A stretch of 64,000 nucleotides of DNA from an uncultured Marinilabiliaceae bacterium. Lineage in GTDB: Bacteria > Bacteroidota > Bacteroidia > Bacteroidales > Marinilabiliaceae. Both the position numbers and the translations under genes were made by a program. Each line of letters opens with the position of its first letter. Position 1 is the first letter of the stretch. This document shows positions 707 to 2,864 of the stretch, one piece after another. The stretch is taken from contig CALEUX010000014.1 of assembly GCA_937920475.1 (NCBI GenBank), forward strand, positions 1 to 64,000. Direction: 5' to 3'. The notes under the pieces are model-generated. The model saw nothing but the letters and a program-made list of their open reading frames with translations, was not told the origin of the DNA and did no database searches.

Positions 707-836
707 AATGTAATACTTGTCGAGCCTGGCGCTGTATAAAATATAGACAATGTACATACCACAATAAAAAAGAGAGACCATCTTCCCGACAATCTCTCTT
801 GTTTTGGTGACTCAGCTGGGATTCGAACCCAGGACC
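707..836. repeat. 130-bp direct repeat, copy A
   Basis: Matches 1061-1190 at a constant offset of 354 bp with only two differences (GG against AA after GTCGAGCCT). Read on the minus strand it holds the 3' part of a tRNA (T arm, acceptor strand, CCA), a terminator hairpin, and the first 17 or so codons of the GIY-YIG gene. In this copy the GIY-YIG start leads nowhere, so this is a remnant. Confidence 0.95.
764..800 (-). terminator. Second copy of the tRNA terminator
   Basis: The same hairpin as at 1118-1154 (AAGAGAGA pairing with TCTCTCTT, then a T run on the minus strand), carried in repeat copy A. It would end transcription coming from the GIY-YIG gene and the tRNA remnant. Confidence 0.75.
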
Positions 837-871
837 ACTCCCGATAAATCGGGATGCTCTACCAGCTGAGC
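805..871 (-). pseudogene. Truncated tRNA-like remnant downstream of the GIY-YIG gene
   Basis: On the minus strand this holds a D arm (GCTCAGCTGGTAGAGC), a stem-loop TCCCG-ATTTAT-CGGGA where the anticodon arm should be, a normal T arm (CCTGGGTTCGAATCCCAG), the acceptor 3' strand CTGAGTC and ACCA. The 5' acceptor strand is absent and the anticodon loop has six bases, so it should not be a working tRNA. Its T arm and 3' end match tRNA-Lys at 1159-1234. The central palindrome TCCCGATAAATCGGGA belongs to the element family noted elsewhere in the window. The GIY-YIG frame reads through it and stops in its acceptor stem. Confidence 0.8.
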
Positions 872-1111
872 ATGCTTTAATAAAGCTTCTATGAAATTGC
901 GCGACTTCTGATTCTTTAAATACAACTCCCTCCTGACTGCATCTTCCTTCTGCTCGTACTCTTCTTTATACACCAAATTCCAAGGAATGCCCCTGTCCGT
1001 AAATTTTCCTTTACGACGATTATGCTCCTGCAACCGTCGCTCCATATCATTGGTGTAGCCAATGTAATACTTGTCGAGCCTAACGCTGTATAAAATATAG
1101 ACAATGTACAT
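812..1111 (-). CDS. Small GIY-YIG nuclease domain protein ending in tRNA-derived sequence
   Basis: A 99-residue single-domain protein. The N-terminus MYIVYILYS and KYYIGYT form the GIY and YIG halves of the nuclease core, followed by an Arg-containing helix (MERRLQEHN) and the Glu-bearing segment EDAVRREL, as in stand-alone UvrC-like/YhbQ-like members. I start it at the ATG at 1111 rather than 1135, because 1111 gives the usual family start and 1135 lies inside the terminator of tRNA-Lys. The last 20 residues, from HAQLVEHPD on, are translated from the tRNA remnant, and the stop TGA is part of its acceptor stem. The gene sits directly behind tRNA-Lys in the same direction. Small GIY-YIG genes beside tRNAs are common in Bacteroidetes; their role is not established, and a homing-like or repair role are both open. 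Confidence 0.75.
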   Translation of the reverse strand: MYIVYILYSVRLDKYYIGYTNDMERRLQEHNRRKGKFTDRGIPWNLVYKEEYEQKEDAVRRELYLKNQKSRNFIEALLKHAQLVEHPDLSGVVLGSNPS

Positions 1112-1190
1112 ACCACAATAAAAAAGAGAGACCATCTTCCCGACAATCTCTCTTGTTTTGGTGACTCAGCTGGGATTCGAACCCAGGACC
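1061..1190. repeat. 130-bp direct repeat, copy B
   Basis: Partner of 707-836. Here the pieces are in working context: 3' part of intact tRNA-Lys, its terminator, and the true start of the GIY-YIG gene. Confidence 0.95.
1118..1154 (-). terminator. Rho-independent terminator of tRNA-Lys
   Basis: Minus-strand hairpin with an 8-bp stem (AAGAGAGA/TCTCTCTT) and a run of six T, five bases past the encoded CCA of tRNA-Lys. The GIY-YIG ATG at 1111 is just beyond the T run, so the nuclease gene would need read-through or its own promoter. Confidence 0.85.
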
Positions 1191-1234
1191 CCATCCTTAA
1201 AAGGGATGTGCTCTACCAACTGAGCTACTGAGTC
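1159..1234 (-). tRNA. tRNA-Lys (anticodon UUU), CCA encoded
   Basis: A full cloverleaf can be drawn on the minus strand. The acceptor stem is GACTCAG/CTGAGTC, the D arm GCTC..GAGC, the anticodon arm CATCC-CTTTTAA-GGATG with TTT in positions 34-36, and the T arm CTGGG-TTCGAAT-CCCAG. The discriminator is A and CCA is encoded. A promoter-like TATTTTTG lies 26 bases upstream and a strong terminator follows. Its 3' part is duplicated at 805-836. Confidence 0.97.
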
Positions 1235-1259
1235 ATCCTGTTTTGCTATTAAAGCGGTG

Positions 1260-1290
1260 CAAAAATAGGCTCTTATTTTTAAAATCACAA
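1260..1290 (-). promoter_or_regulatory. Bacteroidetes-type promoter for tRNA-Lys
   Basis: On the minus strand the -7 box TATTTTTG fits TAnnTTTG exactly, and TTG lies 20 bp upstream of it. The predicted start is about 15-20 bases before the tRNA. Confidence 0.55.
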
Positions 1291-1383
1291 CAAAACAAAA
1301 CTAAAAAAATGTTTTTTTTATTGATAAATAAAGCTTACAAGTCGTAACCAACAAGCCTTTAGAATTTTGCAGTCAATATTTTT

Positions 1384-1414
1384 TTTGATTTCCTTCAATA
1401 ATATTGTAACTTTA
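1384..1414 (+). promoter_or_regulatory. Promoter of the AmmeMemoRadiSam genes
   Basis: TTTG at 1384-1387, a 19-bp spacer, then TAACTTTA at 1407-1414, one base off TAnnTTTG. The spacing is canonical for the Bacteroidetes primary sigma factor. It would give a leader of about 35 bases before the ATG at 1455. Confidence 0.55.
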
Positions 1415-1454
1415 GAATGATGCCAAACCAAAAAACAAACCGTTTATTATTGCT

Positions 1455-2864
1455 ATGCCTGAAAACACCCGACAACCTGCCGTGGCTGGTAGTTTTTATG
1501 ATGATGACCCACAGAAACTGCAAAAACATCTGGAGACGTTATTCAGCAATGTTTCCGGCTCGTTTTCGAATCAGGTTATCTCAGCCTTGATACTTCCACA
1601 TGCAGGGTTTGTTTTTTCGGGACAAGTAGCAGCTTCGGGTGTGGCACAATTGAACTCAAACAATACCTATAAGACTATATTCCTGATTGGTGCCAGTCAT
1701 AGAATGGGATTCGATGGAGCTTCTGTTTTCAGAGGCACTTCTTTTTTAACCCCTTTAGGACCGGTGCCTGTTGATACAACTACCACCCAAATGCTTATTG
1801 CTGCCTCTCCATTCTTTGGGCATGACCCCCGTAGTCATACTGAGGAGCATTCACTAGAAGTGCAGTTGCCATTCTTGCAATACCATTTTAAAAATCCATT
1901 TCAAATTGTACCTGTTTTAATAGGAACCAGAAACGTTTCCACCTGTAAAGCTATTGCCCAAACACTGGAGCCATGGTTTACCTCCGAAAACTTGTTTATT
2001 ATAAGTACCGATTTTTCGCATTACCCGAATAACCAGGATGCCCGCCATGCTGACCAGGAAACACTTGAGGCCATTTTAAGCAATAATCCCGATAAACTGC
2101 TGGAGGTTATTGCAAAACATGAAAAAGAGAAAATTCCGGGGTTAGTTACTTCTTTGTGCGGATGGACAGCCGTACTCACAATATTGCACATTACCAGCCA
2201 TAGAAAGGATATCAGTTTTCTCCCTGTAATGTACCAAAACTCTTCTGATTCGATTTATGGAGACAGTAACCAGGTGGTTGGTTACCATTCAGTGGTTATT
2301 GCAATCAATAAAAGGGATGATTTTAAACTAACTGAAGATGAAAAGAAGTGGCTGCTTAACCATGCCCGAACGAAAATTAAATCGGCTTTTGAAAGAACTC
2401 CACCAATTACTGATAACGAAATCCCGTCAAAACTTAAAACACAAATTGGCGCTTTTGTTTCTGTTTATGTTGATGATAAGTTAAATGGTTGCATTGGTCA
2501 TATCGGTGAAGATACACCTCTTTGGAAAGTTGTGGAACAATCAGCTTTTTGTGCAGCTTTTGAAGACAGCCGGTTTGAGCCATTAAGAAAAAACGAATTG
2601 AATCAGTTTAAACTGGAAATATCGGTACTCACCCCTCTAAAAAAAGTCAAAAACATCGATGAAATTATTCCCGGCAAACATGGCATCCTAATTCGTAAAG
2701 GGCTCAATCAGGGAACTTTTTTGCCCCAAGTAGCCAGTCGCATGAACTGGAGTCATGAAGAGATGCTTGAAAAATGCTCGCGCGACAAAGCCGGACTTGG
2801 GCGTGATGGATGGAAAGATGCCGAGCTTTTTATTTACGAAGCCATTGTTTTTAAAGAGCCATAA
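1455..2864 (+). CDS. AmmeMemoRadiSam system protein B/A fusion (Memo domain + AMMECR1 domain)
   Basis: 469 residues in two domains. Residues 5-285 are a Memo-like domain (LigB dioxygenase fold): PAVAGSFYDDD at the start, LPHAGFVFSG around His49, GASH with His82, TDFSHY with His189, SLCGW with Cys235 and QVVGYHSV at the end. His49, His82 and Cys235 look equivalent to the metal ligands reported for human MEMO1. Residues 295-467 are an AMMECR1 domain with the signature LNGCIG (343-348) and FEPLRKNEL. In many bacteria these are two genes; here they are fused. The radical SAM partner follows after 9 bp, so the set is complete and probably co-transcribed. The reaction is unknown to me; the metal-site reading is by analogy. 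Confidence 0.9.
   Translation: MPENTRQPAVAGSFYDDDPQKLQKHLETLFSNVSGSFSNQVISALILPHAGFVFSGQVAASGVAQLNSNNTYKTIFLIGASHRMGFDGASVFRGTSFLTPLGPVPVDTTTTQMLIAASPFFGHDPRSHTEEHSLEVQLPFLQYHFKNPFQIVPVLIGTRNVSTCKAIAQTLEPWFTSENLFIISTDFSHYPNNQDARHADQETLEAILSNNPDKLLEVIAKHEKEKIPGLVTSLCGWTAVLTILHITSHRKDISFLPVMYQNSSDSIYGDSNQVVGYHSVVIAINKRDDFKLTEDEKKWLLNHARTKIKSAFERTPPITDNEIPSKLKTQIGAFVSVYVDDKLNGCIGHIGEDTPLWKVVEQSAFCAAFEDSRFEPLRKNELNQFKLEISVLTPLKKVKNIDEIIPGKHGILIRKGLNQGTFLPQVASRMNWSHEEMLEKCSRDKAGLGRDGWKDAELFIYEAIVFKEP

Follow-up and report, generated by a model that had tools for sequence, protein, structure and literature searches.

The window, i.e., the whole stretch of DNA that was analyzed, corresponds to the first 64 kb of one contig in a draft genome of 188 contigs. 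At the locus considered here, an intact tRNA-Lys(TTT) gene on the minus strand is followed by a terminator, a GIY-YIG open reading frame (ORF), a tRNA-Lys remnant, a second copy of that terminator and the beginning of a second GIY-YIG gene (Table 1). No RNA family besides tRNA was returned by the Rfam scan of the window. The first-pass annotation had described two 130-bp direct repeats with two mismatches, and these mismatches were indeed located at adjacent bases (728/1082 and 729/1083); beyond this core, the likeness between the two copies reaches 165 nt at about 92% (707-871 and 1061-1225, offset 354).

Table 1. Features of the tRNA-Lys locus, in window coordinates.
Feature	Position	Strand	Basis
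Intact tRNA-Lys, anticodon TTT	1159-1234	minus	ARAGORN; Rfam RF00005 75.5 bits
Terminator-like hairpin and T-run, between intact tRNA and nuclease gene	1119-1154	minus	sequence
GIY-YIG nuclease ORF, 107 aa as listed	812-1135	minus	Pfam GIY-YIG E 5.5e-17
GIY-YIG catalytic domain, catalytic residues present	899-1111	minus	profile match and alignment
tRNA-Lys remnant, D-arm through 3' end	805-871	minus	alignment with intact tRNA
Palindrome TCCCGATTTATCGGGA, in place of the remnant's anticodon arm	839-854 (16 bp)	strandless	sequence
Second terminator copy, beyond the remnant	765-800	minus	sequence, repeat comparison
Second GIY-YIG copy, start only	704-781	minus	92% to residues 1-26
Direct repeat copy 2	707-836	strandless	self-comparison
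Direct repeat copy 1	1061-1190	strandless	self-comparison

The only complete GIY-YIG frame of the locus begins inside one repeat, and its final 20 residues (HAQLVEHPDLSGVVLGSNPS) and TGA stop are made of tRNA-Lys remnant sequence, as had been noticed before. Such a tRNA-derived C-terminus is true of the window but incidental, because relatives normally stop at the remnant's edge or close to it. Likewise, the remnant had been read as the 3' part of a tRNA, and its 3' end is present, but D-arm sequence is kept as well, no 5' acceptor strand is left and the palindrome stands in place of the anticodon arm. Because the listed ATG (1135) falls within the terminator hairpin and homologues begin at the next Met (1111), the protein probably starts at the latter and would comprise 99 aa. 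As judged from its relatives, the tRNA-Lys gene has probably been occupied at least twice; the copy adjoining the intact tRNA would be the newest, the older one having been trimmed to its first codons. Since the window begins at a contig end, a collapsed or longer array could lie beyond base 1. This position in a fragmented metagenome draft, shared by many relatives found likewise at contig ends, is what would be expected of an assembly artefact, which the first-pass annotation had mentioned as a possible refutation. However, the same architecture was found in three single-contig genomes (G019, G133 and G135) and in dozens of independent assemblies, which makes such an artefact extremely improbable.

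Relatives of the window protein were detected in 41 of 71 genomes of the host family, and a profile built from 14 diverse members was positive in 72 of 118 genomes drawn from across the phylum, the carriers including Saprospiraceae, Paludibacter, Chitinophagaceae, Flavobacterium and Crocinitomicaceae. Among 145 full domains from the fetched loci, which were chosen by protein similarity and not by tRNA context and over-represent the best hits, 74 had a tRNA on the same strand within 400 bp upstream, 33 stood in tandem behind another copy, 12 lay at a sequence edge and 26 had neither a tRNA nor a tandem neighbor; an opposite-strand tRNA within 400 bp was observed for none of the 145. Several of these 26 belong to the mirror-image, tmRNA or RNase P loci described below. 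The upstream tRNAs covered 21 anticodons and 16 isotypes. The units measure about 350-530 bp and recur about every 350-560 bp in tandem arrays, the copy number reaching 22 in one genome, with eight of these in tandem (period of about 364 bp). Broken nuclease copies occur at many loci, and arrays often end in a copy truncated within its first codons. Two arrays show further particularities. One locus (L181, G123:C34:5500-11500) holds eight GIY-YIG copies that repeat about every 364 bp, and a second palindrome lies in the 3' part of one of its remnants; neither an intact tRNA nor a tmRNA was found by ARAGORN in this 6-kb stretch. At another locus (L044, 3090-3785), an 84-bp direct repeat of about eight copies lies immediately upstream of the tRNA-Met that precedes the GIY-YIG array. 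Phages or plasmids as main carriers are without support, because the full window protein found no relative among viral contigs, a separate search gave five weak phage matches and none was obtained in plasmids.

The search for GIY-YIG units abutting tRNA remnants of the same isotype, which had been proposed as a check, was successful across Bacteroidota. In most loci for which downstream sequence was available, and in nearly all of those with a remnant, the stretch downstream of the nuclease gene aligned with the same isotype as the intact upstream tRNA, well above shuffled controls, and the 3' part of the remnant together with the following terminator region was usually near identical to the front copy. 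The homology break fell in the T loop for Trp, Phe, Leu and Ala, in the T stem for one Met type, in the anticodon loop for Asn, Tyr and another Met-annotated type, and in the D loop for Arg, while no remnant was detectable at four loci (L033, L034, L041 and L057). The reverse arrangement was also found. Mirror-image loci exist for Leu-CAG, Arg-CCG, Arg-CCT and several Ser and Pro tRNAs: they begin with the upstream region and a 5' tRNA part bearing a palindrome, continue with the nuclease gene and end with a repeat of the upstream region that leads into the intact tRNA; in the Leu-CAG and Arg cases this palindrome sits in the D loop. Besides many kinds of tRNA, the units apparently insert into the gene for RNase P RNA. 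Of six congeners, two (L177 in G135, 1190-1500, and L199 in G124) carry a GIY-YIG ORF within the P3 helix, where a perfect stem (24 or 19 bp) holds it in its loop, as part of an insert of roughly 300 nt, and the P3 helix is short in three other congeners (G096, G108 and G170). Finally, two tandem GIY-YIG copies were found directly behind a tmRNA (L211 in G101, 1100-2236, minus strand).

Occupied and empty sites with precise junctions, also proposed as a check, were found in two sister species, G013 and G012, whose flanks are 89% identical. At tRNA-Trp, the empty G012 locus reads tRNA, terminator ATAATCCTGACTTCGGTCGGGA and flank. In the occupied G013 locus, the tRNA is followed by a different terminator (AGAAAGCTCAACCTTATTGGTTGGGC), the nuclease gene and the palindrome CTGGCGTTAGCCAG, then by the 3' part of the tRNA from TTCGAGTC onward and by the G012-type terminator and flank. 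The insert corresponds to an offset of 439 bp, and the GIY-YIG gene is the sole ORF within it. Hence, the tRNA now has a 3' end and terminator supplied by the element, and its former ones were displaced downstream: the tRNA gene was inserted into and regenerated. The restoration of the tRNA end upon insertion, which the first-pass annotation had surmised, is thereby seen directly. The empty Trp state is the older one, because more distant congeners carry G012-like terminators. At tRNA-Tyr, a 534-bp insertion in G013 relative to G012 is joined at the anticodon loop. Presence and absence also vary within one genus at tRNA-Phe, with three copies in G018, one in G009, at least partial copies in G006 and G007 and none in nine congeners, as well as at the RNase P RNA gene among congeners. 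For the Arg-CCT mirror-image locus, no empty site was found in congeners, because its tRNA sat on a flank that is not common to them, and the search with the Met flank of G042 gave weak matches in its congener only.

These pairs bear on a simpler scenario, in which replication slippage duplicates a tRNA and its downstream gene in tandem and the extra tRNAs decay, without any mobility. Such slippage would account for the window, tRNA-Phe and several other loci, where both terminators are alike and the last nuclease copy is truncated. On the contrary, it does not fit the unlike front and rear terminators at Trp and at two other loci (L056 and L046), the mirror-image form with its duplicated promoter, or the empty Trp and Tyr sites of the sister species. 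Slippage was considered very unlikely.

In the occupied loci, the remnant is interrupted by a palindrome while the intact tRNA copy remains, and this palindrome is usually located at the homology break. A strict palindrome, defined as a perfect stem of at least 6 with a loop of at most 6 and 4 G or C, was present in 20 of 35 remnants, vs. a mean of 0.85 in dinucleotide shuffles. It was also present in 9 of 57 intact tRNAs up to the T loop and in 21 of 70 upstream DNA regions, the latter warning that inverted repeats are common near such genes. In its simple form, the palindrome as a unique signature of the element was rejected, because the same palindromes are scattered genome-wide, many of them inside an IS-like repeat. 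Indeed, the window pattern had 41 sites in the genome (none for the backwards control), 26 of which belonged to one repeat family; the scattered palindromes are partly those of unrelated repeats. Over the phylum, at least two sites of CCTGCCT..AGGCAGG were found in 21 of 72 nuclease-bearing genomes vs. 0 of 46 that lack it (Fisher p 1e-5, uncorrected for phylogeny). In about 26 of the loci L097-L136 of genome G000, TCCCGATTCATCGGGA lies within a near-identical repeat found at many contig ends, which probably represents an insertion-sequence end. Another dispersed repeat, likewise not that of the element and imperfect in sequence (L097, L098, L101, L102, L106, L107, L110 and L131) carries palindromes at varying positions, as if insertion into it had been repeated.

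The nucleases themselves belong to the GIY-YIG superfamily, Pfam PF01541 being matched by 14 of 14 members, with the catalytic Tyr, Tyr, Arg, His/Tyr and Glu. All six key residues were present in 138 of 142 domains and the median dN/dS was 0.14 (22 pairs); the enzymes are therefore maintained as nucleases. Their tree groups by tRNA isotype, with 31 changes vs. a shuffled mean of 67.7 (0 of 200 shuffles as low), although it is weakly resolved (93 columns) and near copies inflate this grouping; the isotype groups mix host families. A retained catalytic site, purifying selection and the lasting attachment of each clade to a single isotype would also be expected of a nuclease with a host function, such as the repair of tRNA genes, tRNA surveillance or defence, that remains linked to the tRNA genes because it serves them and forms arrays through ordinary unequal recombination. 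We regard this possibility as unlikely, since presence at orthologous tRNA genes is patchy within a genus, many loci hold broken copies, the units also insert into RNase P RNA, and a foreign terminator together with the original remnant denotes insertion beyond simple gene linkage.

Taken together, the units are likely minimal, homing-like selfish elements aimed at structural RNA genes, each composed of one short GIY-YIG gene of the URI/UPF0213 type, a copy of one side of the target tRNA and a junction palindrome. This reading follows from the same-isotype remnants, the association with same-strand tRNAs, the empty sites at Trp and Tyr, the variation at Phe and RNase P RNA, the nuclease clades that follow isotype, the conserved key residues, the low dN/dS and the existence of the mirror-image form. 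The minimal selfish unit put forward in the first-pass annotation is thus supported in both its architecture and its mobility. In the proposed mechanism, the nuclease would cut, at an internal loop, a tRNA gene that belongs to its own isotype and is still unoccupied. Repair would then copy the donor, from the tRNA half through the terminator and the nuclease gene, into the break, a step visible only through its product. The tRNA would be rebuilt from the host 5' half, the donor 3' half and the donor terminator, the old 3' half and terminator becoming the remnant; in the single sister-species pair, this product was observed at Trp and the Tyr locus is consistent with it. The junction palindrome may render the remnant uncuttable or mark the end of the element, and repeated insertion, or a break-induced duplication as reported for phage SegB, could yield the tandem arrays. 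Against this homing-like reading, the host's intact tRNA should also be cut, and the sequence offers no explanation of its protection; some members lack a remnant, 26 of 145 domains have neither a tRNA nor a tandem neighbor, and the window copy lies at a contig end.

If true, few known self-promoting DNA elements would be as small as these, which would target the most conserved genes of the cell yet leave them functional. This would explain why, in Bacteroidota, tRNA loci break assemblies and bear arrays of small nucleases. It would also provide many compact nucleases whose natural targets are isotype-specific, and how an 80-residue enzyme recognizes a tRNA gene and spares its host would become testable. 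A broader and more tentative possibility is a phylum-wide class of minimal mobile elements, each made of a single 80-105 aa nuclease gene and a palindrome, with specialised lineages for most tRNA isotypes, invasion of RNase P RNA and a location behind tmRNA, in which the host RNA gene is always rebuilt and the nucleases may also spread the short interspersed palindromes of Bacteroidota.

The open-access literature searched yielded no account of chromosomal GIY-YIG units residing in tRNA genes, and judged from these papers the element would be unusual for a homing type in its breadth of targets and minimal size. Its occupied and empty alleles with precise junctions (G013 vs. G012) are as expected of a homing element. 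SegB of phages T4/T6 is a free-standing GIY-YIG homing endonuclease located between tRNA genes; it has been implicated in breaks within tRNA-containing DNA and is required for the tandem amplification of tRNA-Tyr and segB (PMC13096335). The units resemble this system, as described there, in their GIY-YIG domain, tRNA-gene neighborhood and tandem amplification with tRNA. However, SegB is phage-borne and 221 aa long with a long C-terminal region, and neither insertion inside a tRNA gene nor a leftover remnant is reported for it in the passages of PMC13096335 consulted. Against the profile of the units, SegB gave 2.0 bits (E 0.015 for one sequence), the match being confined to the first 26 residues; SegB is not a close relative, and membership in its family was rejected. 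By sequence, the closest solved relatives are standalone UPF0213/URI-type GIY-YIG proteins (1ZG2, E 7e-15; 1YWL, 1e-11) and Slx1 (5e-7); the solved proteins carry no annotation of mobility or of a tRNA target. Group I or II intron homing was discarded, as no Rfam intron match was obtained in the window or in 20 loci. The units are not insertion sequences either: they encode no transposase, the sole ORF being GIY-YIG, and the duplicated part is a piece of tRNA of tens of bases. Intervening sequences with small ORFs occur in 23S rRNA and resemble the RNase P form in that a long stem within a structural RNA carries an ORF in its loop; here, however, the ORF encodes a GIY-YIG nuclease, the host RNA is RNase P RNA and the tRNA forms are flanking, not internal. 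Integrative islands use tRNA 3' ends as attachment sites, restore the 3' end and leave a 3' fragment at the far side. The units share with them the insertion in a tRNA gene, the restored 3' end and the distal 3' fragment. The Trp insert (about 439 bp) encodes the GIY-YIG ORF alone and no integrase, and the units differ from such islands in measuring about 350-530 bp, in having junctions in the T, anticodon or D loops and in occurring also in a 5' form.
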